NCBI GenBank assembly: GCA_949317995.1
Contig: OX439038.1
Location: forward strand, 37,143,113-37,207,112
Source of the DNA: Acholoe squamosa
Taxonomy: Eukaryota; Annelida; Polychaeta; Phyllodocida; Polynoidae
Length of the DNA: 64,000 nucleotides
Direction: 5' to 3'
The translations under genes and the position numbers were made by a program. Under the pieces are notes generated by a model. The model saw only the letters and a list, made by a program, of their open reading frames with translations. It was not told where the DNA came from and did no database searches. Positions 22,301-56,558 of this stretch are shown piece by piece (the stretch's first letter is position 1; each line of letters starts with the position of its first letter).

Positions 22301-22702
22301 GAAAACTAAAAGGAACAGGTGAAAATTTAAAAACTCTGAAATCGTTGCAGATAGAGACTTGAAACTTTGTCAGATGGTTGATTCAGGTCTGAAACCACTC
22401 AACACAGTTCTGTTTTGCTTTTTCACCTCAGGCATCATGTAGAAATCAACTAACACTAAAACTGTTGGACCTAGTGTATTGAAACTGTGTCTCGTGGTAA
22501 TTTTAAGCCTGAAATTGCATGTTCACATTGATTTTGGGCAGAACATGTGAAAATTTAAAAACTCTGAAACCATTGCAGATAGAGTATTGAAACTTTGTCA
22601 GATGGTTGATTCAGGTCTGAAACCACTCAACCCAGTTCTGTTTTGCTTTTTCACCTCAGGCAACAGGTAGAAATCAACAAACACTAAAACTGTTGGACCT
22701 AG
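19329..22702. repeat. Satellite array, block 3
   Basis: About 3.4 kb of the same satellite. The order of unit variants partly differs from block 2 (for example around 19800-19880, where a unit is fused to another variant), as expected from unequal exchange. Confidence 0.9.
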
Positions 22703-28344: not shown

Positions 28345-29201
28345 TGAACGAATGTGGACGGTTGTGGAAGGAAGGATGTTGTAGGCTGTTGTGGGTTAGC
28401 TAGCTCAAATGGTTTGATGGTTGTGATGCTTGTTTGCTGGTTACTATGGTATTAATTCAGGGGTTTAATTCGTTGTTCTAAAGGAAGTGGTAGAGGAAGG
28501 GCAAGAAGGCGTTCATCTCTCCATGACCTTAAAACACTCTCAATCCGCCGATTAAAGTTCCAATATTTATTGTAATATCCACTTCAAATCACAGAAGTCT
28601 TGTTCACAGGTAGTTGGTTCAATTGGGCAAGGATGGTAATAGTCACAAGTACAAAGTAGAGTTCCAATCTAACTGGTTACAAGTACAACTCCAATATGAT
28701 GTGTGTGTGCTGCAGCAAGATGACTAAGTCCAAAGGTTAATACTTACACAGTCCAACCCTGTGTATCCCAGCAGAAAGTATGGTTAGTCCTCACAGGAAG
28801 AGCATTACGTTCTATCTCCTGCCTGCTTGGTCAGCTCATCTGCTTATATACAACTCAGACGCCTCCAACCACCAGTCCCGTGGCCTTAAAAGGCCACTTC
28901 CTGTGGAGCCTTCCCACAGTTCTTTGCACCCTTCCCACAAAGTATTGCAACAGGAACTGCAGCACTTCTAGACCAATCAGAAGGCAGCGTTTCAGCTGCA
29001 TGATGGGAATGTTTACAATCAGGGTGCACTGTGGGAAGGTTTACTCGCAGAGGCTGCTGGGAAGGGGATCCCTATGCCTTGTCTGGAGTATAGGTGGCTG
29101 GAGTAACTATGTTTCATGCAGAGACTAGGCGTCTGCTGCAGAGTTGGAATAAACGTGTTTTGACTCGATGTTTTGACTTGATTTAAAGTGGCTATAGCAC
29201 A
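28345..29201 (-). repeat. Element C 3' LTR (~857 bp)
   Basis: Plus strand reads TGAACGAATGTGG...GGCTATAGCACA. It matches the 907-bp solo LTRs reversed, with TATATAA (minus, near 28845), the pair of GTGGGAA motifs and AATAAA near 28565. Short plus-strand frames here are shadows. Confidence 0.85.
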
Positions 29202-30862
29202 CCCGTGGGCGGTTATTTAAAGAAATTGAGAAGCAATTTCTTTACTTCGAAAATTGTGAATACTTATATTTTGTTTCCAACACAAACATGCTGTTTTTGG
29301 TTACATTTGATTATATGTGCAGTATTTTCATCTTAAACCTGAGGTATTTTCATCATAAGCTGATTATGTCAGGTTTCTACATAAAATAGTGTGAATTGTT
29401 ACCCTGGTTCGACAACTACCCCTTGTTTAATTATGAGGGCGTACAGTTGTACATGCTTATTTTATTATGGTAACTCATCAAATCACGACTTAGTGTGTGA
29501 CAATTGGAGAGAGAGAGAGATCACGTTATTCCATAACTGGACATGGAAGACGCCTACAGAGATTTCATAATCGACTTATAACTGTAAGCAAGTTCAAGTC
29601 TGAGGTAAGTAGTATGCATATTCCATGAGATGATGATGTGATTGTCGCTAATGCGGAGCCATGAGGGTTGTCCGTCTGAGGACAGGAGCATAGATGTGCA
29701 AAATGTCCAAATGCTCCACATAGCAGGTAAGTAAAAAAGAATTGGAATTGGAATTTGAAGGATTTGCCCGTGCGTCATTGATGGAGTGCAGAATGGGCTG
29801 GGGATCAGCCAGAAAAGGCCAAATGATCATGAATGGAAAAAGAACACAAGACAAGAAGATTGGCACGTTGGCCACGTATATGGACGGTAGTGAATAATCA
29901 CGAATGAGACAGACGTCCCAGAGATCAGGCTTATCAAAAGCCGTCAGAGCGTCAATGTCAGTGAATTAGAATAAGAGTCTTTGAGTACCAACTCATGGCT
30001 GGTTGTCCACATCTGGATGTGGTGGAGTGGATAGTACAGCGGAGAAATAGACCCTTTGAAGACGGCTAGGGAAGCCAATTTTGAATTTTGAATTTGAATA
30101 TTGAATTTTCATTAAAGTGGGGGGCGGGACAATTTTGAATATCTCTCTTCTCTTTGGTATCAAAGAAACAGTAGTATTATGTTGTGAAACCCTATTCTTA
30201 CAAAACACCACACATAGTTATCTATACTTCGATAAGATAGTACAAGTTTCTTGCCATTGTTTAGAATACATGTCATTTTGGGCAAGTTTCTATCAACGTC
30301 TTTTCCCGAAAACAATTTAGAAGTTACTTTCTTTGTGGTTAGTTCCTATAAGTGTTATTCTTCTCTTATATTCTCATAATCAATGTCCGTTGATTAATGT
30401 CTATCATTTTACATCAGTTCATTTGTACTATTGCTGTGAGCGCGCTTGGGCGTCGACGAGTTTTTCATATCAATCAGTACAGGTATACTGCTATATATCA
30501 CACGTCAGTCCTACATATGTTATATATATTTCTTTTTGTTTTTGTCTCTTTTTCCACGAGAATAAAGAGTTAGGCAGCTGGTGCCAACGAAAGTTTTCTG
30601 GTAAAGTTTTTATCAACTTCCGTCTGTGATGTGGCTGTGCACCACAGAACTTCACGAGGTGCAGCCAATCAGAACACTTCATCCTTCCGTAATGTCATTG
30701 TAGATGTTTTCGTTCATCCGACCTGTCCCTACTTCAATGGGGACAGCGGCCGGAGGGGCGCTGGCGTCGGTTGTCCGTCTGTGCATGCGTAGTGCCTGTC
30801 TGCCGAGGTCATCAAGCAATCGTTCGTCGGCTAGATCTCCCCCGATGCGGGTCCACCCGGCC
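29202..30862. other. Gene-free 3' region of element C
   Basis: AT-rich sequence between envelope and 3' LTR. I see a short GA microsatellite near 29508, simple TTTGAATTT-type repeats near 30084, and a minus-strand AATAAA near 29458 that could end envelope transcripts. No frame with coding character and no clear polypurine tract beside the LTR. Confidence 0.6.
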
Positions 30863-33313
30863 TCAGCCAGTCAGTCTAGGCATGGAGAATGGAACAGGTG
30901 TGGCTAATCCGCCAGTGAAGCGGAGGAGCCGAGTCATTGTCGATGACTTCCCTTCTCCTACGAGGGTGGCTGCCAGTCTCTTCGACACTTTCAGCGAGTT
31001 CGGGAGGGGGATAATCTTCGGCACTTGACCAGGGCGGGTTGCGGCTGCATAGACGCTCATGCCCCAGGTGATGCGGGCTCGTGCACTCAGGAACAGGTGA
31101 TCGATTGATAGGTCTCTTATCAGTGCCTCTCCCTGGGTGTACAGATGGTCGAATGGCATAGTCAGTTCACCCAGGAAGATGGTTTCCAGGACCAACGGTG
31201 CCGAGAACTGTAGGTAGATCCCATCCGGTGTAGACCGTCGAGCGGCCTGTCGTAGTCTCCACACTAGGTAGAGTGCGAACAGCATCATAATCGTTAGCAG
31301 CAGGGCAAGGACGGCGGTAGGTGTCGAGCAGGCCAGCCGTTCGGTCGGGCACTCTGGTGGGGGGCCGTAGCACCTGATGGTTTGTGCTGTAGCAGCCGAT
31401 GTCTGAGACGCCAGGGCTGACGTAGCTAGAGCACGTCTGTGTCTCCAACAGAGAACAATCAGTGCAATAATGAGCACCACCGAGAGAGCCGACGAACCCC
31501 ACGCTGCATACTGTCCATAGAGTTCATTTTTGTAGGCCATCGGTCTCAGAATGAGCTTTTTCTTGTTAATCCTGTCAACCAAGTCTTTTAATGGCATGTG
31601 AAACGGCTTCCCGTCCGCTTCCTGTTCCATTGATTGCCGTAGTTCTTGTGGGATAGGGTCGTATACAATGTTCAATTTAGTATCATGGACCTCCGTGGTG
31701 ACCCAATGAGCCATTTGCATTCCCCTTACGACCAGGTCATTGGTAGGATATGTGATGGGCTCTCGGTCCCTGTGCTTTGCGCATCCTTGAAGACTGTATG
31801 GTATCCATGACTTTTCCATCATGAAGGCACAGTCGCACCCCAGACTTATCACAGCATAGTTACTTATGGTTTTAATTTCAGGTGGTCGATTTCCGCAAAT
31901 CAGCTGTCCCTCAGTTTCAGATGTTACAATAAGGACGGTTTCAGAGTCCAGTTGCACTGCCATTTCTTCAAAGTGTGGCTTTATGATATAGTCGACGATA
32001 CACAGTTCATCAATGGCCGATTTGTCATCTCTGATTAGGGCTGCCACGCACTCGTCATCGGTGATTTTCTTCATGTGAGGTACGTCCGAACATAAAGTCA
32101 CTGTGCTCCCGTAGCAACTAGCCCAGTCGATGATTGGGTTCGGGATGTAGTACCTTTGGCTTATAGACAACGCGATAGCATTTGGTACGTTGCTGACGAT
32201 CGCGCCATCTGCCTTCTGTCCTGCGACTCTGACTGGTACAGGGAATTTCAGGACCTGGTACATCCTGAACAGGTGTTCTTCTGAGACAACTGGAATGCGC
32301 AGGGTCACAACTATTGATGAGCCGTCGCGAGTGCACTGAGGGCGAGCATTCTCGTAGTAAAATGCTGGTGATTTAAAGGCAGACCTGAACCTTGAGTATT
32401 TCTGCCTCAGGTATACGTCCGTCCGTCTCACAGCCTTTATTATGGCTTGAGGTGGAATAATCTTAGGTGATAGTCTATGACGTGTTAGCTGGTGTATTTC
32501 AGATGTAAAAGTCTCAAGGTGTCTTAAATTGTTCACGTAGTGTAATATCAGGCCTAGTTTTACCCTATTTAGGTATCCAAGGTATGTAAGATAGGCCCTG
32601 TTTTCTTCTATCTTTAGACGATTTCTGACAGAGCGTTTGCTAAGGTTCAACATTTTGAAGTTGGTAGAGTCGGCTACAGCTTTAAGTCCTGATAATTTGA
32701 GTTCTATACTTGTCAACATGACGTTTGTTTTCAGCACTAGGTCCTTTGTAATGTCAGTAAGTTCATTATGTGCTTCAGTCAGGACTTCTATATTTTTTGC
32801 ATTGTATTCAATGTCCGAAGCACGGCCGGTTCCGAACACATGATATCCAAATTCAGATATTAGATTTAGCACAGGTATTCCTGCACGTATGGTGCGATTA
32901 AGTCCGTTGTCTTGAGGTACACTTTCCAACAGCTTAGCTATCATCTGATGACGTTCAATACGGAGCTTGGCAATGTGCTCGTCCAGCCATTGTTCAAACA
33001 CATAAATTTGATTGCACACTGCTTCATACTCTTCTGTTCCATTGCCTATTCTTACTTTTTCACGGTTCAGTCGATTTATGCACATGTTCGTGACGTTTAC
33101 ATCTTGGTTTAATCCAACATCAGGAGGGATGGTGACAGTCAGCTGTTGCACCACGTGGCTGGTGTCTGCTATTGATATCACACGTCCGGGTTTTAGGACG
33201 ACCCCAAGCTTTTCCCTGTGTATAGTCTCTTGGGTAGTCACGTGATGGAGTGTGTAAACTATCAGCAGTATTGTCAGGGTTGCAACTTGTGCAACAGGTA
33301 TCCCGACAATCAT
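30863..33313 (-). CDS. env: Element C envelope glycoprotein, Baculo_F-like (816 codons)
   Basis: An N-terminal hydrophobic signal (about residues 8-25) precedes a long ectodomain. A glycine-containing stretch near residue 130 (RAGIPVLNLISEFG, then VFGTGRASDIEY) resembles the fusion-peptide region and following heptad region of Baculo_F and errantivirus Env. Later come RLSPKIIPPQAI and VVTLRIPVVSEEHLF, typical family blocks, and Cys-rich segments. Near residue 610-632 is a membrane segment (SSALSVVLIIALIVLCW), and a second hydrophobic stretch (LALLLTIMMLFALYLVW) follows about 60 residues later, which is unusual for one-pass envelopes. The frame looks whole. It is divergent from the plus-strand frames at 33983. 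Family assignment is by eye. Confidence 0.75.
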   Translation of the reverse strand: MIVGIPVAQVATLTILLIVYTLHHVTTQETIHREKLGVVLKPGRVISIADTSHVVQQLTVTIPPDVGLNQDVNVTNMCINRLNREKVRIGNGTEEYEAVCNQIYVFEQWLDEHIAKLRIERHQMIAKLLESVPQDNGLNRTIRAGIPVLNLISEFGYHVFGTGRASDIEYNAKNIEVLTEAHNELTDITKDLVLKTNVMLTSIELKLSGLKAVADSTNFKMLNLSKRSVRNRLKIEENRAYLTYLGYLNRVKLGLILHYVNNLRHLETFTSEIHQLTRHRLSPKIIPPQAIIKAVRRTDVYLRQKYSRFRSAFKSPAFYYENARPQCTRDGSSIVVTLRIPVVSEEHLFRMYQVLKFPVPVRVAGQKADGAIVSNVPNAIALSISQRYYIPNPIIDWASCYGSTVTLCSDVPHMKKITDDECVAALIRDDKSAIDELCIVDYIIKPHFEEMAVQLDSETVLIVTSETEGQLICGNRPPEIKTISNYAVISLGCDCAFMMEKSWIPYSLQGCAKHRDREPITYPTNDLVVRGMQMAHWVTTEVHDTKLNIVYDPIPQELRQSMEQEADGKPFHMPLKDLVDRINKKKLILRPMAYKNELYGQYAAWGSSALSVVLIIALIVLCWRHRRALATSALASQTSAATAQTIRCYGPPPECPTERLACSTPTAVLALLLTIMMLFALYLVWRLRQAARRSTPDGIYLQFSAPLVLETIFLGELTMPFDHLYTQGEALIRDLSIDHLFLSARARITWGMSVYAAATRPGQVPKIIPLPNSLKVSKRLAATLVGEGKSSTMTRLLRFTGGLATPVPFSMPRLTG

Positions 33314-33982: not shown

Positions 33983-34660
33983 ATGTTGGTGCAGGCTGGG
34001 CCGTATATGCCCCAGGAGCAATACCTGCGGAATCTACTGAGCGGATCATTATTGAGGGCGGGCGCGACACCCAGTCATCAGCAGAATGCTGTATTGTCTC
34101 TACAAGCTAGCGCCATTTCACAAAGTCATCGTCCTGTTCATGCGGTGCCGACCGCTCCTCCGATGATGTCGCCCGTTGCAGTGCAGCGGTCCATGGGAGA
34201 AGGCAGGTTGGGCTGGCGGCGAGGTGGGCCGTATAACAGATTCGTGGCCGCGACTTCGCCGTCTCGATCCTGTACGACGGTTGTCAATCCCACGGCTGTG
34301 CGAACCATTCTTCGAGACAACGTTGCAGCCGGAGCGGGACGCACTAGGTTACATAGTCCACGTCGGGAGTCGCCGTCCCCTGCTCCGCGGGTTGTCGCAG
34401 TGAGTAAAGTGGTTCGGACTCTTCCAGCGCGCCAGCCGTCGTCAAGGACGCGTGCCATCCCATTAGTTAAGACGTCCACCCCGGGTCTGACGATTCTTCG
34501 GTCCATCAGTACCGAGTTAGACAGTATGCCGCGGTCGTCGTCCGCCTCTCCGTCGAGGAGCTCGTCTCCTGTGCGGGGTTCTGATGGCGGGGGATGGTCA
34601 AGACATCCGGTCCCAGCGACTGCACGTCATCAGCCGCCGCCGGAACATCAGCTGCCGTAG
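33983..34660 (+). CDS. Antisense frame 1 in element C (225 codons, Arg/Ser/Pro-rich)
   Basis: Plus-strand frame, opposite to all other C genes, beginning MLVQAGPYMPQEQYLRNLL and continuing as a basic, Ser/Arg/Pro-rich, probably disordered protein with RS and SP runs (SASPSRSSSPVR). GC-rich with no stop for 225 codons. No family recognised. It overlaps the next plus-strand frame by about 67 bases. Its position recalls antisense genes of deltaretroviruses, by analogy only. Confidence 0.45.
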   Translation: MLVQAGPYMPQEQYLRNLLSGSLLRAGATPSHQQNAVLSLQASAISQSHRPVHAVPTAPPMMSPVAVQRSMGEGRLGWRRGGPYNRFVAATSPSRSCTTVVNPTAVRTILRDNVAAGAGRTRLHSPRRESPSPAPRVVAVSKVVRTLPARQPSSRTRAIPLVKTSTPGLTILRSISTELDSMPRSSSASPSRSSSPVRGSDGGGWSRHPVPATARHQPPPEHQLP

Positions 34661-35103
34661 GTTCGTCATCAGACAGCGGTGGACAAGCTCTAGGTTCGAA
34701 CCCTTCGACCACCCCTGTCAGTAGTTCCACTGTAGGCTGCCAGGGCAGCGGCAACTCTCCTCGTTCTGCTGCCTGTCCATCCGACTTAGCGTCGACGGAC
34801 GGCAGGGACAGCATAGCCTCCAGCCGACCGCGTAGGGATAGCGCGACTTCTAGTCGGTCGGGAGGCGCCGGAAGTCCCGCAGCAATGTCGTCCATGTCAG
34901 ACCCTGGAGCCTCGGCGTTGGAGGGACCGGTGCAGATACCGGCTGATGATCCTGATTTGGAGTTTGATCTTAGTATATTCCCACCAGGCACGATTATAGA
35001 CTGTGCCCCGTCCACGTCCACAGGGATCAGGTCTGGCAAGGCTCCGCATCGACCGGACATACCTAAACCATCCGCTGATCCATCGTTGTCAGACGATGAG
35101 TAA
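34594..35103 (+). CDS. Antisense frame 2 in element C (169 codons, acidic C-terminus)
   Basis: Plus-strand frame, Ser/Gly/Thr-rich for about 115 residues, then an ordered-looking acidic-hydrophobic patch (DDPDLEFDLSIFPPGTIID) and a C-terminal SLSDDE. The patch looks like an activation-domain-type motif. The minus-strand frame at 34506-35153 covers the same DNA and is an alternative reading. I prefer the plus strand because of this patch and the adjoining plus frame. Function unknown. Confidence 0.45.
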   Translation: MVKTSGPSDCTSSAAAGTSAAVGSSSDSGGQALGSNPSTTPVSSSTVGCQGSGNSPRSAACPSDLASTDGRDSIASSRPRRDSATSSRSGGAGSPAAMSSMSDPGASALEGPVQIPADDPDLEFDLSIFPPGTIIDCAPSTSTGIRSGKAPHRPDIPKPSADPSLSDDE

Positions 35104-35395
35104 TGCCATGAGGCAGTGGATGTCATATTGCAGCAGACGTTGCCCATTTCCACAGTTAGGGCTGGACACAGTATACCTCTCTGTCAGTGCCTCCATCTGC
35201 CGGGTGCTGGCGGGGTTATTCAGGTCTATTGGGCTCAGTGAAGGTATATAGTGAGTAGATCCTGATGTACTACGCAATGAGCAATATATCCCCTATTTAT
35301 ACATATTAGAATCTGACAGTTTCCTCAAAATATTGCATAATTTTGATACTAGTAGTTATCCTGTGTGAAGTCTTTCTTTTGTGAGGTAGATGCAC

Positions 35396-35614
35396 CTAAT
35401 TCACACATGTCCCAATAGGGCGTGGCAGGGGGAGTGGTGGCGCTGGCAGAGGCCTATTATCATGCACATACTGCGGTCCCAGGTATACTTTGCGTAGGGG
35501 TCTCCTGGTAGTGGAGTACCTGGCGGACCGAGGGCTTAGTTCTACCTTGTGCATCTGTACGGCCGGGGGCGGGCGCGCCCTAGCTCCAAGACAGGCACCC
35601 ATTGTTTTTCCCAA
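35396..35614 (-). CDS. Small Pro/Arg-rich frame in element C (72 codons)
   Basis: Minus-strand frame 15 bases downstream of the 139-codon frame. It contains RARPPPAVQ and a proline run PLPAPPLPLPRP that resembles an SH3-ligand stretch. No counterpart can be tested in E because E is cut by element F before this point. Low confidence that it is translated. Confidence 0.3.
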   Translation of the reverse strand: MGKTMGACLGARARPPPAVQMHKVELSPRSARYSTTRRPLRKVYLGPQYVHDNRPLPAPPLPLPRPIGTCVN

Positions 35615-35629: not shown

Positions 35630-36049
35630 TTAGAGTGCGCCACTTGCTCCTACTTCCGATGAACTGAAGGGGGAGGGAAGGACGAGGGCGTTGGTGACGT
35701 ATTTATCTTTTATTGCAGCTACTCTGTCCCAGCCTTTATGACTTGCCTCAGATGCTGTCTCAATTACGCAGGTAGGGCAGCAGCACAAATTGGTTAATGA
35801 ATACATCCTTGTCACGTTGTCCAGTCTCCTGAAGTAGAATGGGATGGTGATGATGGTGCGGTCTACAGAGTCAAGGGGAAACACATTGAAATAAATACCA
35901 GCTGTTTTACATTGTCCATTTCGTACAGCGAAGAAGTATTCCCTTGTTATCACAGGTATATAGCAAATACTCAAACAACTGTCGATATCATAAATGTGAA
36001 TCCCTGATGCATGTGCACATGGTTCAGCAGTGCCCAATGTAGCAGCCAT
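35630..36049 (-). CDS. Unidentified Cys-containing protein of element C (139 codons)
   Basis: Minus-strand frame after the SIM-like microprotein. Mixed alpha/beta-looking composition with aromatic residues (REYFFAVRNG, IYFNVFPLDSVDRTIITIPFYFRRL) and a cysteine cluster NLCCCPTC near residue 91. Well-balanced composition supports a real protein. No family recognised and no homologue in this window. Confidence 0.5.
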   Translation of the reverse strand: MAATLGTAEPCAHASGIHIYDIDSCLSICYIPVITREYFFAVRNGQCKTAGIYFNVFPLDSVDRTIITIPFYFRRLDNVTRMYSLTNLCCCPTCVIETASEASHKGWDRVAAIKDKYVTNALVLPSPFSSSEVGASGAL

Positions 36050-36156: not shown

Positions 36157-36219
36157 TCATTCCTCATCATCGGACTCAATTACTATGACGATTATGGGCA
36201 TAGCAGGTCCCTCAGCCAT
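36157..36219 (-). CDS. 20-residue SIM-like microprotein of element C
   Basis: The frame encodes 20 residues: a short start, then PIIVIVIESDDEE. A run of Ile/Val followed by Ser and acidic residues is the known form of a phosphorylatable SUMO-interacting motif. Element E has a frame of exactly the same length at the same place in the cassette (56683-56745; PIVIIIVSDDED), with 10 of 20 residues identical by eye. It starts 25 bases after the acidic-protein frame ends. Conservation of length, position and motif supports translation; SUMO binding is inference. Confidence 0.6.
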   Translation of the reverse strand: MAEGPAMPIIVIVIESDDEE

Positions 36220-36244
36220 ATTTACTATCACAATGGCAAAATGA

Positions 36245-36481
36245 CTAGGCACGTGCATTTCTCCTAGATGTGCGCTGGGCCTGGATGAATCTTGCCAGGA
36301 GTTCCTGTATTTCCTCAGGGGTGGGGTAATCCTCGTCCCTGATATCGTCATATTCTTCATCAGATAAGTCTTCCATTATCTCCGCGGTAATTGGATCATT
36401 TTCGTAAGTGTAATCAAATGTGTCCAATGGCTCGCGTGTTGGCCGGCTGTCCTCATCCATCATGACAGTTTCATTACTCAT
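36245..36481 (-). CDS. Acidic accessory protein of element C (78 codons)
   Basis: Strongly acidic protein (MEDLSDEEYDDIRDEDY) with the core FDYTYENDPITAEIM, matched in E by FDYTYKDNPIHAELM at 56559-56681. The C-terminus here is a longer helix-like basic tail (ELLARFIQAQRTSRRNARA) not seen in E. Lies between the zinc-finger and microprotein frames. Function unknown. Confidence 0.6.
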   Translation of the reverse strand: MSNETVMMDEDSRPTREPLDTFDYTYENDPITAEIMEDLSDEEYDDIRDEDYPTPEEIQELLARFIQAQRTSRRNARA

Positions 36482-36506
36482 GATTGTATTTCTTCCAATT
36501 AGAATA

Positions 36507-36746
36507 TTATTCCATGACTAGATCAGCGTATCTGCTGCGCATCAAGGCAACGCAGTGTGCGGCGGTGCCGTAGTGAATTTTCAATTTAATGGTAGAAGCA
36601 TACGTTAAATTGCATGTGTCACAGTGTGTACCTAGGTAGGGGTGGCATAACTGAAGATGCCACACGACTTCCTGTCTAATATTAAATATGTCTCCACATA
36701 CACTGCATATGTGTGAATGTCTCGTTGTGTTGACCAGCGGTGTCAT
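36507..36746 (-). CDS. C2H2 zinc-finger accessory protein of element C (79 codons)
   Basis: A C2H2 finger HICSVCGDIFNIRQEVVWH followed by LQLCH has C-x2-C-x12-H-x4-H spacing. A second one starts CDTCNLTYA and continues to KIHYGTAAHC. The E homologue (56308-56508) shares about 21 of 39 positions over the fingers by eye. Likely nucleic-acid or protein binding; role in the element unknown. Confidence 0.7.
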   Translation of the reverse strand: MTPLVNTTRHSHICSVCGDIFNIRQEVVWHLQLCHPYLGTHCDTCNLTYASTIKLKIHYGTAAHCVALMRSRYADLVME

Positions 36747-36772
36747 TATAGGTCATTTAGCGCGCCAGTTTT

Positions 36773-37228
36773 TTACATTAAGATTTTCTTAAATATTTCT
36801 ATTGTCCACTTATCAGGGTAAGGGGGAGGTGAGGGTTCACCTAAGGGTCCAGCCTCGTATAAGTACCTTTTGCCAATTTCCCTCTTCAAATTAAATGTAC
36901 TTTTCACTTTGTCCCCAAAGAGCTTTTCCAGGTTATGCAGATATCTTAATTCATATCTTTTAAGACACGTGCGACAATCTCTGCCTGGTTTCTCGTTGCT
37001 ATGACAATAGAAACACAGATTGTCCCAGGGAAGGTGTGAAGTTAATTTTCCAACAGTGTAGGTGGCGTGATGCTGATTGACTAGAGTCTGTAGTGATGTA
37101 GGCAATTTGTAAATCCTCAGGTGAGATTTAGAAACAGCATCTACCGCCAAGCCCAGTAAAGAGTCGGTGGAGTAATTGCTGACACTTTCATCCAATAGTC
37201 TCCTGCCACTTCTTGTGTAGATGCTCAT
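36773..37228 (-). CDS. CxxC/PPPY accessory protein of element C (151 codons)
   Basis: N-terminal basic segment, a helical part (LGLAVDAVSKSHLRIYKLP), QHHATYTVGKLT, then a putative zinc site LCFYCHSNEKPGRDCRTC and a C-terminal PLGEPSPPPYPDK. PPPY fits the PPxY late-domain motif that binds NEDD4-type ligases in other viruses. The E homologue (55874-56311) shares HHAKYTVGELT, the two CxxC pairs and PYPD-like ending (PVPAYPDD). It begins one base after the membrane-protein frame ends. Confidence 0.65.
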   Translation of the reverse strand: MSIYTRSGRRLLDESVSNYSTDSLLGLAVDAVSKSHLRIYKLPTSLQTLVNQHHATYTVGKLTSHLPWDNLCFYCHSNEKPGRDCRTCLKRYELRYLHNLEKLFGDKVKSTFNLKREIGKRYLYEAGPLGEPSPPPYPDKWTIEIFKKILM

Positions 37229-37229
37229 A

Positions 37230-37466
37230 TCACAGCATAGTCACGATTTCTAAACTTACTTGAATAAATAATGTGTGCCAGGCACTAATGTTTTTGTTAT
37301 CCTGGGTGAGTGTTAGATCCCTCCGTAGCGGTATTATTTCCTCACGAGCTGCTTGTAACTGTTCAAAAGTGTGTCTGCAGCAGGCAAGCAGACATCCTAG
37401 AGTAAGGCCTCCAAAAATTGCAAATAAAATACAATATTCCAGATATGCAGAGCGTTCTGTCTGCAT
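37230..37466 (-). CDS. Small one-pass membrane protein of element C (78 codons)
   Basis: Short N-terminus, one membrane segment (YCILFAIFGGLTLGCLLAC) and a cytoplasmic CCRHTFEQLQAAREE. The dicysteine just after the membrane suggests palmitoylation. The E homologue (55643-55813) matches from the first methionine: MYGDRPVAIQYTLLFGLFGG against MQTERSAYLEYCILFAIFGG. A GTAAGT splice-donor-like sequence lies inside the 3' part of the frame (37254-37259, minus), and E has one at its stop codon (55810-55815), so spliced forms are possible. Viroporin-like or accessory membrane role is inference. Confidence 0.65.
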   Translation of the reverse strand: MQTERSAYLEYCILFAIFGGLTLGCLLACCRHTFEQLQAAREEIIPLRRDLTLTQDNKNISAWHTLFIQVSLEIVTML

Positions 37467-38557
37467 ATTAGCAGAAACAGCAAACTCACAGGTAGGTGCA
37501 ATATTCCAGTGATGGCATGACTCCTGTGTAGAGTAGAGTTATAGTATGGTGCAGAGCAGCTCGCTGAGTAGTGATCTGGCGCAGGGTATGGTACTCCAGT
37601 GGTGTCTCCATCAACACTGCAGGGGGAGGAGCGCCATTGCTGCTATATATACTGGGGGCGGGTGGAAGTTACTCACAGAACAGCCGTCCCACAGTGCATT
37701 GCGCGCCTTCCCACAGTTCTCTCTGGCATAAACAGAGCGTTGCTGGCTTCCTGTGCAGCCAGGAAGTCGGCTCCTAGCCCAGCAGGCTCCTTACTCAGGC
37801 AATCCTGATCGAGCGGCTCCTATATAAGTAGCGTCCCTAGCAACGATCCCTGCTCACTGTAATACAATCATTGGATCTGTTACCATTGGGGCGCCGTCCT
37901 TATGCACCAAATTGCGCTCAGTGTAAGTACTGTCTTCTGGTCCAGGTCATTATGAGCTTACAGATTTTTCACAGATAGCTATTTTCGTGGAAATTTTAGT
38001 ATGATACTGTCAGTTTTAAATTGTGCTTTTCATAGCTACAGTCATATCTATACAATGTGTATTTCTCTGCTAAAAAATGTTATCTGGGTATCTATAGTTT
38101 GCCCAGTAATATTTTTGTTTTCCTTATGGATCCTCTGAGGATAATTATTCATTGCTCTCCTTCAATAATAGCTTGTGTAGCGTCTTAGTGGTGACGTTCA
38201 ATGATAGCTATAGCGCGTTGCTTTCATGTTTAATGTGTAATGGGCTAGTTGTAGCGCGTATTGTGCGAGGCACGTATTTTCCATTGTAGTATTTTATAAG
38301 TATCCTTTTCATTCTTTGTTAGTAGTACATATTATCCTTGTTACTTTTCATTGCATTTCCATTATAGTTTCCATTTATCATTCATATAATCATGTGATAA
38401 GCCAGGGGTTTCATATACATTTTTCATAACCTCGGGGGTTTAAAATAGTAATAAGTCCTAATAGTTGAAACCTGTGGAACCCGGAACACGGTGTTCCCAT
38501 ACCCGCTGGCCTCTGTACCAACTCCCAGCCGTTGGGATTACCAGGTCAATTCAATAT
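37467..38557. promoter_or_regulatory. Internal divergent promoter region of element C
   Basis: Minus strand: TATATATA (37644-37651) before the cassette. Plus strand: TATATAAG (37822-37828) pointing back across pol, with GTAAGT at 37923-37928. Between them lie TTCCCAC (37708-37714), GTCCCAC (37686-37692) and AGGAAGTCGG (37761-37770). GGAAGT to TATATAA is about 60 bases, as in the C LTR. From about 37930 to 38557 I see no gene, only AT-rich sequence. Confidence 0.6.
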
Positions 38558-41500
38558 TTATATCACAATAAAATCACATTCATCATCCTCCCCGTCTGTA
38601 TCGGTCCAGTGCGTAGGGGGACGGGCTGCGGCCCTGGGGCGACTACTCCTCAGAGAAGGTTTCTTGCAGCTTTCCTGAGCCGGGGGCGTCGAGGAAGGGG
38701 TGCGGGCATGCGCCGCTGATTGCTTCTTTTTAGTGGCGTCGTCACTGGCAGACCGTCTGTCCAGGCTAGCCTTTTCTTTACTTTTCTTATTCTTTCCCAC
38801 CAAGCCTAGTGCCCGAAGCGCGTCAGCATTTTCTTTGACATTTTTGCCCACCTTGCCTAGTGCCCGAAGCACGTCAGCGTCCTGATTCTTTGTCCCAGGA
38901 GGGTCCTCTTGTGTCGGGACCTTATTTTCTTCTATAGTTTCTTCATGTATTTCATTTCCTTCTTCCATTTCTTCAGGAATTTCTTCATTTCTTTCTTCTT
39001 CTTCATAATTTTCGTTTTCTTCATCTACTTCTTCATCAGGATTTTCATTTTCTTCTTCATCTACATCGTCTTCCTCTGCTATCGCTGGTGCCCAAGTTTT
39101 GTAACACCTTTTGAGTTTCTGTATGTTCACGAAGTGTGGTATTTCAACACCAGTTGCTACAGATGCCACACGCACTAGGTGGTCATCCTTCACTTCTTCT
39201 ATGTGGTAGGGCCCTTTGTAGCGGTCCGAAAATTTGGAGACTCGGTTTGCAGAACACATAGGGTCATACACGTAGACGAGATCTCCTTCATTGAAGTCTA
39301 CAGGTCGTTTTCCTGCATCCAATCTTTTCCTAAGATTTTCCTCGTATTTGTCTGTGTATGTTTTAGCCAGTTTCTTGAATTGTTCTATGTTGTCCTTTGT
39401 TCTTAGGAACCATTCTGATTCTGAGAGAGTTGTAGGCGTTGGTCGGTTGTCAGGTAGGCCCATGGCCTTTGTGTCACGTCCAAACAACAGGGTGTAGGGG
39501 GAAAATCCCGTTCTACCACTGATAGTGGATCGGATCGTCCATAGGGCTATTGGGACCAAATCTGGCCACATGTCATGTCCGTCATCGATGTAGCATGCAA
39601 TAATGTTTTCGAGGCTTTTGTGCATCCTCTCAACTCTCGCATTCCCGGTAGGCATTCTTGCACTTGTCATGCTGTGGCGACAATTAAGTCTAGTTGTTAT
39701 TTCATGGAAGATTTTTTATATGAAAGTCGGGCCTCTGTCCGAGTGTATGCGTTCCACTTTTCCATATCTGCATACGATGTTCTTCAGAAACAGGTCTGCT
39801 CCTGTTGCTGCTGTCGAATCTTCTGTGCAAAATGCTTCTGGGTATCCTGTCAGCAAATCCACGAATGTCATTATATATTTTGACTTGTCTGCTGCTGGTT
39901 TCAACGGTCCTATGAAGTCCACTTGTACTTGCTGCCACGGGTAATCCGGTGTATCCCAGCTTTTGGCAGCTGCTTTGAAGTGAGGAGCTCTTTTTCTCAG
40001 AGCACAGGTTTCACATTTCCTGACATATTCTGCAATGTCCTCGTGTAGGTTCTTCCAATAGTATTTGGATGTCACTTTGCTGCATAGAGCAGCTGTGCCT
40101 ACATGTCCGCCGGTTATTATATCATCATGTAGAATCTTCAGTACCCTTTGCTGTAGTTCCTTTGGCACGACGATTTTGCCACTCACCTCAGTGAATTGTC
40201 CTCTTTTCTTTCTATGTGGAGCTGAGAATTTTACCAAGAGTCCTGGTTCTATCATTCCCATGAATTCTGATTTAATCATGACAGCTTTGGCTTCTTCCCA
40301 ATCATCTGGGAATACTTTGTCTTCCAGGTATTCAATCATCTGATTGCAGGTTGGATCGTCGCGCTGAGCTCTCATCATTCTCTCAGTGCTTATCTCCTGG
40401 TTGGGTTCAATGTTGAATATTTCACATCCCGCGTCTGGTTCGAATTCCTCCTCGTCACTGTTTTCCTCGTCTTCTTGTACACGAGACAGGTAGTCTGGTA
40501 GGTAATGAGTAGCTCCTGGCTCATATGTTACTTCCAGATCAAAGTCAGATAATGATAACGCCCATCTTTTCAGACGTTTCGAGGGCGCCTTGTGAGCTTG
40601 CATCAGTAATGATACTACTGGCTTGTGGTCTGTTACCACAGTCACTTTTCCTCCCTGCAACATATCTTCATATGTTTTCAGTGCTTTTACTACGGCCAGG
40701 GCTTCCTTTTCAGTCACAGTGTAGTTGAGTTCTGCTCCATTCATTGTGTACCCAAAGTACAGGATAGGTCTGTATAGATCGTCGATTTTGTGGCAGATTG
40801 CAGCACCACAAGCACGATCTGATGCATCTGTTAGCACTATGAAATGTCCACCTATCTCTGGGTGTATCAGCAATGGTGGTGAAGTCAGTTTTGTCTGGAT
40901 CTCCTGGAATGATGCTTCACACTTGTCAGTCCATTCAAACGTTGCATATTTTTGTAGCAACTTGTTCAGAGGAACAGCTGCCTTGGCGAATCCCGGGATG
41001 AAGGAACGGTAGTAATTGCACAGTCCTAGGAACGATTTGACAGCTTTCACGTTCTTTGGTTTTTTCACTGCCTTGACCTTTTTAATGATCCTAGGTTGGG
41101 TTTCAAGACCTTCCTTGCTGATAATATGTCCCAAGTAGTTGATTCTGTCCTTACACCAATCACATTTTTCGGGCTTGATTTTCAAGTCCGCTTTGGCTAG
41201 TGCTTTCAGAACAAGTTGAACGTTTTTCAGGTGATCCTCAAATGTCTGGTCGTAGATTATTACATCATCTAGGTATGCCAAACATGTCCTTGGTATGAGG
41301 CCATTTAAAGCAGTAGACATTACCTTGGTAAACTGCTATGGCACTCCACAAAGGCCAAATGCTACACGTCGATATTGGTAGACTCCTGTAGGTGTTTCAA
41401 ATGCTGTGTACTGTCTTGAATCCTTGTCTATCTCAACTTGATGATATCCACTGAGAAGATAGAGTGCTGTGAACATAGTGGGTTTCTTGTATGCCATGAA

Positions 41501-42727
41501 GAGGAATAAAGATCTTGCTGTAGGCATGGGGAACTTGTCCTTGTACGTGATGGAATTAAGCCATCTGTAGTCTGTGCAGAGCCTGGGTTTTCCATTCTTT
41601 TTATAAGCCACTACAAGAGGGCTTCGCCATGCTGATTCACTTGGTTCTATCACTCCTATGTCAAGAAGCTGTTTCACTTGCTCATCTATTACTTCCATTT
41701 TCTGTGGTGAGTATCTGTAGGGTCTTGTGCAGGCTATTCCTTTAGATTCATCCACTCTAATTTTCATTGGTGAAATTTTGCAATGACCGAGCTCAGACAT
41801 GTCAAATGCAAGACTGTCTTGATTGTCCAATAGCATCTTTACAAACTCTTCCTTTTGTGTTTCATCCAGACAAGATTCACTTAGGTCGATCTGTTTTATC
41901 TTTTCTTCCTTTGGTGTTGTTTTCCTTCGTTCTTCAAACTGGTCAGCTGTCAATGATTTTACAAAATCTATTGCCATTTGACACACTTCGGCTGGTATTC
42001 CCATTTTCTGTTGATGGTCTACTCTAAGGAAGTCTGTTAGATCTACAGGGTCCAGTCCAGGTGCTTCACCTTTACTGGCATATGCTAGGACATCATTCTT
42101 TCCCAGAATGATAGGTTTATCTGAGCAATTCATGATTTTTATCCACCATGTTTTTCCTAGTTGGTTGACACTGCTTTCTACACATAGTGGTGCAAGTCCT
42201 GATGGTTCACAGAGTACAGTATCTCCTTGTTCTCCTTGTACCTGTCTCCATGGTGAGACTGATATAATTTTCTCCTGCATAGGGAGCAATTTCTCGTTTT
42301 CTGTGCTTGATATTGGATTTCCTTTGAAGATTTCCACTTTTCTGTCTCCCATTTTCATATCTGCTTGAAGTGCTTCTAGTAAATTCCTACCAATCATGAC
42401 ATCATGGCAAAGATTTTCCATGACATGGAAGTTGAAATATAGTCATGCTCCTTCCACCATGAATTTTAATCTTGCAGTTTCTGAAATAATTTTGCTGTTA
42501 CCATCTGCCATATTTACCTTCAGATTTGCATCAAAAGTTTCTACTATGCATTCTTCTGGTAGTGATTGTTTGTACCTTTTTGAGATGAAGCAGTCACTGG
42601 CTCCTGTGTTGAGAAATGCTGATTTTTCTCTTCCACATAAGTTGATGGTCAGAAATAATGGTTCACTGCTAAGTTTGTCATTAGCTGGTCCGCCCATAGA
42701 ATGCAGTGTCATTGTAATAGGCGGCAC
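38558..42727 (-). pseudogene. pol: Element C pol (protease, RT, RNase H, integrase), broken
   Basis: On the minus strand the order is: a retropepsin region; RT with LCTDYRWLNSITYKDKFPMP and YLDDVIIYD; RNase H with FIVLTDASDRACGAAI and TDHKPVVSLL; integrase zinc-binding part (GGHVGTAAL... CETCALRKRA); and integrase core (VQVDFIGPLKP, IHSDRGPTFI, NARVERMHKSLENI). After the core is a GPYHIEEV-type domain, about 70 Glu/Asp/Asn-rich residues, a doubled ALRALG-VGKN motif and a basic end. This is the Ty3/gypsy order. Broken, with about three breaks. Confidence 0.85.
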
Positions 42728-42738: not shown

Positions 42739-44690
42739 TTAGTTTCCCTGCTGATTGTTTCCTGACGGGCCGCCTCGTGCTCCAGGTGCTTGTCCTGTCG
42801 CTCTCATTTCAGCCATCTTATTTTGAAGCCAGCTACAGGCATCAGTACTGTGTCCATACATTTCATGCACTGAGCAATATTTGTGATTATCTTCTCCTAT
42901 CTCTGCTCGATTACCTGGGCGATATTGATTTCCCTGTCCTGTTTTTCCTACATTCCTTTGTTGATTTGGCTGTTGTGTGGCAGGCTGTTGCATGTAGGGT
43001 CTCCCAGATTGAGGGTAAAAACGTGGGCGTTGGAAAGGCTGGTTTCTTGGACCGTTCTGCCATTGTCCTTTATTGGCCCATCCTTGGTACCCAAAGGACT
43101 GTTTATTTGGATAAAATGGTCGTGGTCCCTGGTTTCTTGGATTTCTATCTGCATTGTAGTTTCTGTTAGGCTGGTTGTAGTTCTGGCGCATGGGTGCATT
43201 TTGCTGTTGCTTTTCACCAGCAGCCTCCAGGGCGGCTAACAGTTGATCGAGACGATCATCTGGATGTGCCGGTGGAGATGCTTCTATAACAGCAGCTGAG
43301 GCTTTTGGTGTTTTCTTATCCAGAGATTCAAGCCGTGATGCTACTTTAATTGCATCCTCGATGGTTTTCACGTCTGTTCTGGCCAGTTCTCTTGATATTG
43401 CTGGAGAGGTTCCACCAATAAAAACTGCTAACACTAGTTCTGGTGCCACATCACCAGCTACTTGATGTTTTCTCAATATTCCAGCAAAATCCAATACAGA
43501 TTGGTCCTTTTCTTGTTTGAGTGAGAAGAAATCCCTATGTTTCTGCCGAGATGTCCGTTTGTCTTCAAAGATGTCTATAACGGCAGCTTTCAAATGTGCA
43601 TAAGTGTCTTTCTTGTCGTTTGCTAGAGTTTTTACCCAATCAGCAGCTATGCCTTTTAATCCATGCTTTGCCATCAACAACTTTTTATCATCGTTCCATT
43701 CATACAGTGTGGCAACTGCATCTAGTTCGTCGAAATAGGTTTCAGGATTTTCTCCACTTGAACCATTGAAAACAGGGCTTTTTATGGGTGGTACTGCCGC
43801 CATATTGATTGGTGGGTTGATTGGTTGAGCAGGAGCTGGTGGATGTTGATTCTGAATATTCAACTGACCTTGATTTTGTAGATTTTGTTGATCCTGACTA
43901 TGATCCTCTGGCTCTTTTTGTTCCTCTATATCTGATAAATCCTGTAGATGTCTGTCCAAATCCTGAGAGACAGATTTATGATATTCCAATTTTCTCCTGG
44001 TATTGTGTAAATCCTGAGAGTTTATAGAGTGATCCAATGGTGTTTCATCAAAATCAATAGCAGACCGATCTGCAACCGCAGTTAAACTGGTATTTTCAGG
44101 GAGAAGGTTTACTTCATCCTGACTGCAATCTTCTCCATTGGTATCACTAGCTACATCGGGGTGTAGTTGTACTGTGAGGGCTGGTTCCGATGTAGCGCCA
44201 CTGGGGCCCGCGACGTCGGTTGGAGACGCCACGCTAGGCTGGTCAGACCTCTCTGTCAAGGCCGCTTGATGGATTGATTCCTTGCCTGACCTGGCCGAGC
44301 TTAGAATTCCCGAATTGAGCGCTCGTGGGTCCTCTAAGTCGGTTTCACCTGTGATGACTCCTCAAACTGACTAGGTAATATGGAGTCAATGTCGCTCGGG
44401 GTGGTGAAATTCCACCTGTATGCACCATGTATCCTTTCGTTAATTATAGGTCTGTTACGATTGTCCAATGCTATAGGGTCAGCTTGCCCACGGGAGCGAC
44501 TTGATCTGCCAGACCGGCCGAATCTAGTGAGCAAATCGTAGTCCCTGGCGTTTTCTAGTGATCCTTCTGCAGCTTGTTGACTCGATGTATCAGTCCTACC
44601 TTGCAGCACACGATGGGAGGTATTATCCAACTCATCCGGATTATCAGATGTCGGCGGTGCCGGAGGAATGGGGAAAGGTACACCACTCAT
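42739..44690 (-). pseudogene. gag: Element C gag, broken
   Basis: Same layout as A's gag: start MSGVPFPIPPAPP, disordered Gln/Asn-rich half, capsid-like part (YFDELDAVATLYEW, KHGLKGIAADWVKTLANDKK), Gln/Asn/Arg-rich stretch and CHHC knuckle CSVHEMYGHSTDAC. Broken, with about one break. Confidence 0.85.
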
Positions 44691-44726: not shown

Positions 44727-45570
44727 GGTGAACGGATGTAGGTGGACGGATGTTGTTGTAGGTGGTGGGGTAGCTAGCTCAAATGGTTTGATGGTTGTGA
44801 TGCTTGTTTGCTGGTTACTATGGTATTAATTCAGGGGTTTAATTCGTTGTTCTAAAGGAAGTGGTAGAGGAAGGGCAAGAAGGCGTTCATCTCTGCATGA
44901 CCTTACAACACTCGCAATCCGCCGATTAAAGTTCCAATATTTATTGTAATATCCACTTCAAATCACAGAAGTCTTGTTCACAGGTAGTTGGTTCAATTGA
45001 GCAAGGATGGTAATAGTCACAAGTACAAAGTAGAGTTCCAATCTAACTGGTTACAAGTACAACTCCAATATGATGAGTATGAACCAACCCTAGGTGTGTG
45101 CTGCAGCAAGATGACTAAGTCCAAAGGTTAATACTTACACAGTCCAACCCTGTGTATCCCAGCAGTAAGTATGGTCAGTCCTCACAGGAAGAGCATTACG
45201 TTCTATCTCCTGCCTGCTTGGTCAGCTCATCTGCTTATATACAACTCAGATGCCTCCAACCACCTGTCCCGTGGCCTTAAAAGGCCACTTCCTGTGGAGC
45301 CTTCCCACAGTTCTTTGCACCCTTCCCACAAAGTATTGCAACAGGAACTGCAGCACTTCTAGACCAATCAGAAATGCAGCTTTTCAGCTGCATGATGGGA
45401 ATGTTTACAATCAGGGTGCACTGTGGGAAGGTTTACTCGCAGAGGCTGCTGTGAAGGGGATCCCTATGCCTTGTCTGGAGTATAGGTGGCTGGAGTAACT
45501 ATGTTTCATGCAGAGACTAGGCGTCTGCTGCACAGTTGGAATAAATGTGTTTTGACTCGATGTTTTGACT

Positions 45571-45936
45571 TTTTTTTTTTTTTTTTTTTTGGACTAGCTC
45601 ATTGCGTTAATGAACTGTCAGGTTCATTTATGTAACGCTATAGAGCCGACCAATTTTATTTATATTTCAAACAGATACCAAACAGTTGAAGTAAATATAG
45701 ACTCCACATAATCAGACATATGTCATTATGTACAATAACAGTAAGGAAGCAGGCAAGTGTGTCAAATCAATCACATAGTATTTGTTGAGATATATATCAA
45801 TATGACACAAGAAACACAAAATACAATCAAATGATCATCAATGATATAATATTATATAATGATGAAAATATGCTGATCACATAAATAATATTTGGAGCGG
45901 CGCGGTGACTACACCGTCTCCATCAACCTTTGTTCC
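45571..45936 (-). other. LINE 3' UTR and poly(A) tail
   Basis: About 345 bases of AT-rich 3' UTR, an AATAAA near 45660, then a short segment with self-complementary GTTCATTAACGCAATGAGC and the poly(A) tail (poly(T) at 45571-45590 on the plus strand). A poly(A) tail is unusual for CR1 itself, whose 3' ends are usually short repeats, and points to a Jockey-like or related clade. Confidence 0.7.
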
Positions 45937-52124: not shown

Positions 52125-52462
52125 CAGCTACCTTATGGACATTTTACTATTGGAAATAAGTATCAGTTTGAAATACCCCAGTTACTTGTGTGGATGGGCT
52201 ATGGACTTGTGATAAGGATAACATCTTGTAATTGTGCACTTCTTGGATGGAGATGTAACTCCAAAAAACATTGATACTTCACGGACGGCGTCGCAAGTGT
52301 TGTAAGGTCATGGAGAGATGAACGCCTTCATGCCCTTCTCAATAAGTAGCATTATAACACCAGATGACTTAAGAGCAACTTCATACCCCACAACCGTAGA
52401 CATTTAAACCCATTGAGGTAATTCACCCACATTTGGCATCGCACTCCTACCACATTCCTTCA
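52125..52462 (+). repeat. Element E LTR, 3' portion
   Basis: Contains GTGTTGTAAGGTCATGGAGAG and a CCCTTC stretch shared with the ends of the A and C LTRs, and ends CATTCCTTCA before CCTGGTGGAGAA. U3 is absent. Confidence 0.7.
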
Positions 52463-52464
52463 CC

Positions 52465-52480
52465 TGGTGGAGAAAATTTG
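52465..52480 (+). promoter_or_regulatory. Putative primer-binding site of element E
   Basis: TGGTGGAGAAAATTTG just inside the LTR end, matching A and C in its first ten bases. Confidence 0.55.
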
Positions 52481-52500
52481 TGGTGTATGCTGCTGCGTTC

Positions 52501-54463: not shown

Positions 54464-54499
54464 TAGGCTGGTCTGTGCCGCCTATCACAACTACACTGC

Positions 54500-55020
54500 A
54501 CTCTATGGGCTGACCAGCTAACAATGAACTTAGCAGCAAACCTTTGTTCCTAACCATATAATTGAGCGGAGAAGACAAGCTAGCATTTCTGGACACTGGA
54601 GCCAGCGACTGCTTTATCTCTAAGAAATAAAGACAGTCACTACCAGAAGAATGCATTGTAGAAACATTTGATGCAGGCAACATGACAGTGAATATGGCAA
54701 ACAGCAATAGCACGAAGATAGTGGAAACTGCAAGACTAATATTCATGATGGAAGGAGCACGTCTACACCTCCTCTTCCATGTCATGGATAATTTATGCCA
54801 CGATGTCATAATTGGTAGGAATCTACTTGAAGCACTACATGCAGATATGAAAATGGGAGACAGAAAAGTGGGAATCTTCACAGGAAACCCAGTATCAAGC
54901 ACGAAAAATGAAGAACTGCTACCTATGCAGGAGAAAATAATACCAGTATAACCATGGAGACAGATACCAGGAGAAAAAGGAGAAACAGTGATATGTGAAC
55001 CATCAGGACTTGCTCCATAA
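54500..55020 (+). pseudogene. pol: Element E start of pol
   Basis: Protease block AFLDTGASDCFIS (about 54570-54610), then the region before RT (MDNLCHDVIIGRNLLEALHADMKMGDRKV), matching C at about 42260-42440. Only this start is present. Broken. Confidence 0.75.
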
Positions 55021-55813: not shown

Positions 55814-55873
55814 GTACTGCATTAGTGACCCGGTAGTGCAGACATAACCTATTAATATTTAAGATGAAAGGTG

Positions 55874-56508: not shown

Positions 56509-56558
56509 TTTATTACAAGTACTGTATTATAAATATTTCTGATCAAAAACACCACATT

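Follow-up and report, generated by a model that had tools for sequence, protein, structure and literature searches.

Sets of several accessory genes are regarded as a trait of the complex retroviruses, and lentiviral Vif, like other viral Elongin BC-cullin adaptors, is a small accessory protein that combines a BC-box/cullin-box stretch with a zinc-binding motif. Foamy viruses are described as requiring the Tas transactivator for both the long terminal repeat (LTR) and the internal promoter (PMC8670036), the Gypsy/Ty3 element Cer1 of C. elegans as depending on a novel accessory protein, CERV, for RNA export (PMC10309623), and lokiretroviruses as possessing a dual RNase H (PMC9040795). Here we analyze a stretch of 64,000 nucleotides from the polychaete Acholoe squamosa (contig OX439038.1, positions 37,143,113 to 37,207,112; hereafter, the window) that holds element C, a Ty3/gypsy provirus on the minus strand, and its diverged plus-strand relative E. 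The two have in common a cassette of small genes, and the existence of such a cassette of selected accessory genes in env-bearing Ty3/gypsy elements is real.

A conserved and selected gene cassette

Element C reads LTR, gag, interrupted pol, cassette, further small frames, env-like frame and LTR, and E is a remnant that contains gag and the cassette and has no pol (Table 1); the sequence of another element begins at about position 56750, after the E cassette. An initial annotation of the window had described five frames, encoding a one-pass membrane protein (TM), a CxxC protein, a C2H2 protein, an acidic protein and a microprotein, and all five were found in one order in C (37466-36157) and E (55643-56745). 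Order and motifs persist between the two elements, as it had claimed, but not all of the sizes do, the acidic frame being 40 aa long in E versus 78 aa in C. Its count by eye of 21 identities in 39 positions of the zinc fingers is exact (21 identical residues, H12 to A50 of the C protein), and the second C2H2 finger of E is truncated. A sixth frame, the leader, had been overlooked; the residues PLEY..L are common to its C and E versions. In BlastN comparison, C and E aligned in five collinear blocks with 63-72 % identity (promoter, TM, CxxC, C2H2 and acidic), and TBlastN searches with the C proteins retrieved the E counterparts of TM (E = 1e-6), CxxC (5e-21), C2H2 (3e-14) and the acidic protein (4e-8). 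The same TBlastN analysis, in which the microprotein was not queried, revealed no third copy of the cassette in the window, apart from a weak CxxC match at 34040-34309 (E = 0.014).

The cassette proteins are under purifying selection. In a pairwise maximum likelihood codon comparison of C and E, the ratio of nonsynonymous to synonymous rates (omega) for the five frames jointly was 0.17 (311 codons, grid interval 0.10-0.25, likelihood ratio test p = 5e-19). Each of the five frames showed omega below 1 (p from 3e-6 to 0.012), with values of 0.34 for TM, 0.23 for CxxC and 0.12 for C2H2; for the acidic protein (first 52 codons of C) and the microprotein, omega was near 0 with a runaway branch length, so that the direction alone is meaningful. 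For comparison, gag yielded 0.16 between C and another element of the window, A, and 0.12 for the piece that C shares with E. Because silent sites are near saturation between C and E, third-position counts were used as well, and in each frame the mismatches cluster at third codon positions (Fisher p = 0.0003-0.005). On the short branches between two loci of another lineage described below (L037 and L049), omega was 0.32 for C2H2, 0.27 for CxxC, 0.13 for a Gag-like protein, 0.27 for a frame denoted MGHL and 0.27 for an antisense open reading frame (ORF), with p ≤ 0.015 for all five accessory frames. The selection that the initial annotation had read from the persistence of order, sizes and motifs is thus borne out: omega is far from the value of 1, and the cassette, rather than being confined to these two elements, occurs in dozens of other copies.

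Two further lines were abandoned. Branch lengths hinted at a mosaic origin of gag and cassette, but the aligned cores differ only at p = 0.04 (C/E) and 0.005 (against the C/A gag), and the likelihood ratio for C2H2 of L003 and E looked unstable and was not used.

The CxxC gene across the genome

A CxxC search of the genome (1.48 Gb, 63 contigs) produced at least 170 matches (150 of the 356 candidates were scored), with at least 37 C-type places at ≥60 % CxxC identity, the window copy included, on 11 contigs. We took a census of frames in 30 C-type loci (L001-L030), counting a frame as kept at ≥75 % of the reference self-score and the microprotein, denoted SIM for the motif discussed below, by its pattern plus AEGP. 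Each of the TM, CxxC, C2H2 and acidic frames survives in 28 of the 30 copies and SIM in 26, the exceptions for SIM including one copy with the motif without AEGP and two whose nearly identical frame does not fit the pattern. Eight of these loci (L015-L022) are not independent because they form one tandem array with a constant spacing of 4146 bp (contig C2, about 53.90-53.94 Mb). The window copy of C is atypical: in eight of the nine other displayed loci, the TM frame measures 56 aa and the CxxC frame 169-201 aa, and the window CxxC protein is without 18 residues that are present in those eight. The window copy is thus somewhat decayed.

Among 20 further loci fetched, one is C-like (L043), nine are of the L031 type, eight belong to a large lineage and two to yet another (L047 and L050). 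In L043, the TM, CxxC, C2H2 and acidic frames are kept and there is no SIM frame. The large lineage, which by appearance has about 95 copies among the matches listed, shows in 8/8 loci, in this order, a C-like pol (52-65 % identity), C2H2 (195-228 aa), CxxC (157-161 aa), a Gag-capsid-like protein (80-129 aa) and a C-like env (about 34-37 %). The pol-cassette-env layout of C hence recurs in a distant lineage, which supports the assignment of env to C. The L031 lineage has CxxC, then a 62-aa frame, then env; the L031-type env sequence is present in 9/9 fetched loci, several of them broken, and matches Baculo_F (E = 4e-19, tested in L031 alone). No pol was found, with the queries used, in L031 and the 5 kb upstream (L051) or in L047 and L052, so that membership of these two lineages in Ty3/gypsy is not established. 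Altogether, there are five CxxC lineages, with Ty3-type gag or pol seen in three, and the gene content around the CxxC gene varies from one to another. CxxC is accordingly a core gene common to several lineages that recurs beside env genes.

Several observations on these lineages deserve separate mention. The large lineage has, 5' of env, an antisense frame of 418 aa (L037:5521-6777, minus strand) on which purifying selection acts (omega 0.27, p = 7e-18); this frame is possibly HBZ-like. Its start weakly resembles window positions 33851-34039 (E = 0.015); the window itself has frames antisense to C, 5' of env (33851-35103, plus strand), and its longer antisense frames have no convincing match in L037. 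The Gag-capsid-like gene of this lineage (L037:3977-4318 and seven sister loci) encodes a selected, separate protein similar to the N-terminal capsid part of Gag (26-31 % identity to C and A gag), perhaps an interfering Gag. The C-type places cluster, all lying within 0.01-1.24 Mb on each of the six multi-place contigs (e.g., 28.56-28.68 Mb on contig C6); the remaining five contigs have one such place each, and the large lineage is dispersed. This clustering, together with the proximity of the window copy to a 239-bp satellite, suggests centromere targeting; in the short loci tested, the satellite was absent.

A putative internal promoter

The internal promoter that the initial annotation had placed upstream of the cassette is supported, at the level of sequence, by an aligned TATA block and words common to the LTR; C and E have the TATA block and the leader in common. 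The word TGTGGGAA has 16 occurrences in the window, of which 15 are in LTR copies (five copies with three each) and one is in the C internal promoter. The longest match to the C LTR is a word of 16 nt for the C internal promoter, located 69 bp from the TATA box there and 73 bp from it in the LTR, and a word of 13 nt for E, and 0/500 control segments of the window reach 13 nt for either; the A-type LTR, taken as a control, has 9 and 11 nt in common. In dinucleotide shuffles, the observed length was reached in 0/200 cases for C. TATATA is present at -48/-49 in 22 of the 30 C-type copies. On the other side, the length for E was reached in 1/200 shuffles, E being compared with the LTR of C and not with its own, and by eye there is no TATA ahead of the cassette in L037, so that the internal promoter may be a trait of C and E. 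The region has the features predicted for a core promoter inside the provirus with control elements common to the LTR, that is, one of foamy-virus type.

The CxxC protein and the SIM-like microprotein

The core of the CxxC protein, aligned for 11 members of the five lineages, consists of [ST][LIV]xx[LI][AV]xxx[IV], LPxxLxxxV, HHxxYxVG (YY in one lineage), CxxC or CxxH, and CxxC. Residues L24, I39, L42, P43, L46, V50, Y57, V59, G60, C72, C85, C88, R91 and Y137 are invariant or nearly so, and the conserved residues include the box and zinc positions. In shape and spacing, the first two blocks correspond to what we take to be a BC box and a cullin-2-type box. The box pattern fits 10 of the 11 members versus 1 in 10,000 shuffles, and the family profile scored 23.6 against the boxes of FEM1B, FEM1C, SOCS2 and SOCS4 (from PDB), with at most 16.1 in 100 column shuffles. 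Between FEM1B and E, 32 residues align and 0/500 shuffles reach the score; summed over the five lineages, FEM1B (147) and SOCS2 (149) score above 301/301 control segments, with 129 for FEM1C and 117 for SOCS4. The core thus resembles an Elongin-BC/cullin box placed before a zinc knuckle, a Vif-like layout.

A number of results speak against this assignment. The summed FEM1C score is reached by 8/301 controls, and the boxes of 31-39 aa were compared with control segments of 32 aa. In single comparisons with FEM1B, the score is reached by 13 (C), 17 (L031), 28 (L037) and 126 (L047) of 500 shuffles, and with FEM1C by 377 (E) and 416 (L037). Some of the best alignments (FEM1B-L031, FEM1C-L047) lie elsewhere in the protein, so that the box accounts for only part of what the summed scores reflect. 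The protein of E is without the box proline, the hhalign probability is 31 %, and a SOCS or VHL box was absent in Pfam searches of all 11 members at E ≤ 10, the hits being to other families below the cut-off (best, Cyclophil_like2, E = 0.0043, and Herpes_ORF32, E = 0.032). There was no meaningful PDB match for CxxC, and AlphaFold models were of unusably low confidence (pLDDT 35 for two CxxC sequences and 42 for seven env sequences). We put the role of this protein as a ubiquitin-ligase adaptor at somewhat under an even chance.

Low-sensitivity searches of 5.8 billion proteins gave 27 candidates for the C CxxC protein, none at E ≤ 10, and for the TM pair one candidate that is no relative; scans of viral contigs (IMG/VR) with CxxC, env, a pol piece, an env alignment and TM, and of a genome contig collection with the env alignment, detected no relatives. 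PHROGs produced weak matches only, to the zinc-finger region and of unknown function.

In the microproteins of C (MAEGPAMPIIVIVIESDDEE) and E (MAFSSGPVPIVIIIVSDDED), a hydrophobic run precedes an acidic tail that contains serine, a layout that we take to be that of a SUMO-interacting motif (SIM). Of the 915 short ATG frames of the window (12-40 aa, with nested ones included), only the two microproteins match the SIM pattern (four nested rows), and the hydrophobic run varies little across the C-type copies. The microprotein therefore looks like a bare SIM, as judged from its sequence. Weighing against this, a SIM-type frame near CxxC was flagged in 0/20 further loci scanned, the C-like L043 included, and both the SIM and the box patterns were written after the sequences had been seen. 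A PDB search with the microprotein returned one designed protein only (E = 1.6), and no paper on a viral SIM microprotein was found in the literature searched, which mostly did not extend to subscription journals and preprints. Among host factors, KAP1 or Bonus is described as bound to SetDB1 via SUMO-SIM contacts that hold silencing complexes (PMC13108219), and SUMO as promoting Argonaute-directed silencing (PMC8131101).

Other features of the window

The protease of C was placed by position only. A target-site duplication of C is not demonstrable because the poly(A) of a LINE truncates the 5' LTR at its outer end and because the other LTR copies begin with ~25 nt that recur in another repeat at 50226. 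The C env has six relatives with 33-41 % identity (E ≤ 3e-98), and the 68-aa frame starting with MGACLG possibly has a lipid-modified start, to judge from its N-terminus. A TTGGRARAAA-type motif begins 12-22 nt upstream of three C starts (36498, 36071 and 35614, minus strand). LTRs of the C type are embedded in the 239-bp satellite and were amplified with it (13611-14452, 18421-19301 and 22702-23582). Two frames adjoining the C 3' LTR (26898-28317, minus strand) look by eye like remains of another env, a reading supported neither by Pfam (both frames) nor by BlastP of the shorter frame against C env. A 262-aa SGNH/GDSL-like frame lies beside another frame at 49330-50118 (minus strand; PF13472, E = 0.029, below the cut-off) and recalls the GDSL ORFs of retroelements, and an inverted repeat (98.7 %) beside the gag of element A (2332-4080) probably consists of two LTR copies. 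Rfam gave zero matches at the gathering threshold.

Table 1 Positions of the features of elements C and E in the window
Feature	Position	Strand	Evidence or remark
C 5' LTR	44728..45576	-	19 mismatches in 791 aligned bases versus other LTR copy
C gag region, more than one frame	42739..44690	-	Retrotrans_gag (Pfam) in 506-aa frame
C pol region, interrupted	38558..42727	-	RVT_1, RNaseH, Integrase_H2C2 and rve (Pfam) in separate frames; best PDB match Ty3
C 16-nt word common to LTR	37705..37720	-	5' of internal TATA; 11-nt core in 30/30 C-type copies
C TATA box of putative internal promoter	37644..37651	-	Aligned with E 55456-55463
C leader frame METPLEY..., 41 aa	37486..37611	-	Open in 25/30 C-type copies; E counterpart
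C one-pass membrane protein (TM), 78 aa	37230..37466	-	56 aa in E and most other copies read
C CxxC protein	36773..37228	-	BC-box/cullin-box-like core and zinc knuckle
C two-finger C2H2 protein, 79 aa	36507..36746	-	Pfam matches below cut-off; alignment
C acidic protein, 78 aa	36245..36481	-	17/40 aligned residues identical to E
C SIM-like microprotein, 33 aa, or 20 aa from ATG at 36219	36157..36258	-	omega <1, p = 0.012
C 139-aa frame	35630..36049	-	Present in 17/30 C-type copies
C 68-aa frame MGACLG...	35396..35602	-	Present in 25/30 C-type copies
C frames MGNVCC... (213 aa) and MDRR... (122 aa)	34138..35147	-	TGATG stop/start overlap
C env-like frame, 816 aa, open	30863..33313	-	Similarity to relatives; relative at same relative place in another lineage
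LTR copy taken as C 3' LTR	28345..29202	-	LTR sequence comparison
E stretch matching C gag and following part	52452..55017	+	Sequence match to C; frames interrupted, pol beyond missing
E 13-nt word common to C LTR	55331..55343	+	Word comparison
E TATA box of putative internal promoter	55456..55463	+	Alignment with C
E leader frame, 28 aa	55495..55581	+	C counterpart
E membrane protein, 56 aa	55643..55813	+	C counterpart
E CxxC protein, 145 aa	55874..56311	+	C counterpart
E C2H2 protein, 66 aa	56308..56508	+	Start overlaps CxxC stop (ATGA)
E acidic protein, 40 aa	56559..56681	+	Alignment with C
E SIM-like microprotein, 20 aa	56683..56745	+	C counterpart

Possible functions of the cassette

The interpretation to which we give about an even chance is that of an accessory regulatory, anti-silencing cassette that would work behind a second promoter in the manner of complex retroviruses; its genes may help the elements to resist host gene silencing and to steer host protein breakdown. 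The second, TATA-bearing promoter would lie between pol and env, and because the LTR and the internal promoter share control words, one factor could switch both. That the frames are short, with stops and starts that lie close together or overlap, suggests a single polycistronic transcript translated by reinitiation. The N-terminal box of the CxxC protein would recruit Elongin BC and a cullin (the LPxxLxxxV spacing being Cul2-like), and its zinc knuckle and tail would bind a host target, as in Vif. The microprotein, of 20-33 aa, would be a free SIM that competes in SUMO-dependent silencing, e.g., at the KAP1/Bonus-SetDB1 bridge; the C2H2 protein, aided by the acidic protein, would act on nucleic acid, most simply as an activator of the LTR and internal promoter; and the membrane protein would act at membranes, in a task that we leave unspecified. 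This mechanism is plausible, if unproved. More tentatively, and rather doubtfully, the elements could have independently evolved the full strategy of complex retroviruses: two promoters, a Vif-like adaptor in five lineages, a silencing blocker built on a SUMO motif and, in one lineage, an antisense gene under selection that lies upstream of env and is reminiscent of HBZ of human T-lymphotropic virus (HTLV).

Other functions can be envisaged. The cassette might serve virion assembly or envelope function, with the membrane, MG-starting and zinc-knuckle proteins taking part in budding or entry; its place would then be explained by linkage to env. The presence of CxxC genes near two kinds of env (C-like and L031-type, in 8/8 and 9/9 copies) and a PPPY motif near the CxxC C-terminus in C-type copies are consistent with such a role; however, PPPY is not conserved in the other lineages, the cassette appears to have a separate promoter, and the C2H2, acidic and SIM-like proteins look nuclear, and we regard this role as unlikely. 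Slightly less probable still is control of RNA export or splicing, by which zinc-finger proteins would carry genomic RNA from the nucleus. The HYG..H spacing of the second C2H2 finger of C, which we take to be that of RNA-binding fingers, and a GTAAGT donor located where the TM frame ends, in C as in E, would fit this function, but the second finger of E is incomplete and the reading phase of the donor is unlike between C and E; conserved splicing of a TM exon was dropped as a candidate because of these differing phases. Cer1, with its requirement for CERV (PMC10309623), offers a precedent within Gypsy/Ty3.

Capture of the gene block, together with env, from a DNA or RNA virus, the functions of which it would have kept, could account for the dense small frames, the stop/start overlaps, the repeated TTGGRARAAA-type motif and a C env that matches no Pfam family at E ≤ 1. 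Given that no donor was found in the searches of IMG/VR, PHROGs and, at low sensitivity, 5.8 billion proteins and that the genes near CxxC change by lineage, we deem this scenario improbable. The interruption of C pol and E gag could prompt the view that the frames are neutral leftovers, open by chance in dead copies; omega well below 1 in two independent codon tests, together with the copy census, contradicts this, and we give it hardly any credence. Returning to the anti-silencing interpretation, if Metaviridae possess accessory genes that are under selection, one of them a core gene common to several lineages, this would show that a similar arms race takes place in mobile elements long held to be simple, with silencing and ubiquitin pathways as its likely targets. 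The cassette supplies defined small proteins for probing host transposon silencing, and the SIM-like microprotein makes the role of SUMO in that process directly testable.

Comparison with known systems

By the best PDB match of its pol (Ty3 Gag-Pol, E = 1.5e-54) and by the Pfam order reverse transcriptase (RT), RNaseH, H2C2, rve, as in Ty3, C belongs to the Metaviridae (Ty3/gypsy). The initial annotation had named lokiretroviruses and errantiviruses as the nearest env-bearing relatives. The former are less supported because of the Ty3 match and a single RNase H: Pfam detected one such region (residues 130-260, with integrase from 385), although a degenerate second one could escape Pfam. A likeness of C env to Mononegavirales fusion proteins was not detected either, no Pfam family being matched at E ≤ 1 in what is a low-sensitivity test. 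By the features tested, C is not a lokiretrovirus. The errantivirus comparison holds only indirectly, through the joint presence of a Baculo_F env and the CxxC gene in the L031 lineage; C itself has the Ty3/gypsy pol in common with errantiviruses. The env of C is, in contrast, of another, Pfam-less type, and a Baculovirus-F-like env was not detected in it or in the five of its six relatives that were scanned. We know of no such cassette in errantiviruses.

Nor was a Ty3/gypsy cassette with this content, of which the initial annotation knew none, found in the part of the literature that was searched, subscription journals and preprints mostly lying outside its scope. LTR elements of bdelloid rotifers likewise have extra ORFs common to several lineages (ORF3 types), but those described encode GDSL, DEDDy or dUTPase enzymes or are env-like (PMC5408684). 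Plant Retand elements carry antisense ORFs in an extended stretch between pol and the LTR, and many of these ORFs include a domain that probably binds DNA; unlike in C, this domain is TRP28, and env-type sense ORFs were not found in those elements (PMC11963269). Additional genes are noted for Tat and another Ty3/gypsy clade, in passages that do not describe their content (PMC2774666). Cer1 is similar to C as a Ty3/gypsy element with a novel accessory protein, but there it is a single protein from a spliced mRNA, and a SIM or zinc-finger set is not described in the passages on it (PMC10309623). Foamy viruses (Spumaretrovirinae) are described as having a second promoter inside the provirus (PMC8670036), as is predicted for C, which differs in its Ty3-type pol, in the cassette between pol and env and in a putative transactivator, for which the C2H2 protein is a candidate. 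Finally, the CxxC protein appears to share with Vif the combination of a short BC-box-like and cullin-box-like stretch with a zinc motif in a small accessory protein, whereas its zinc motif follows the box and the spacing is Cul2-like; the likeness described here is one of layout.

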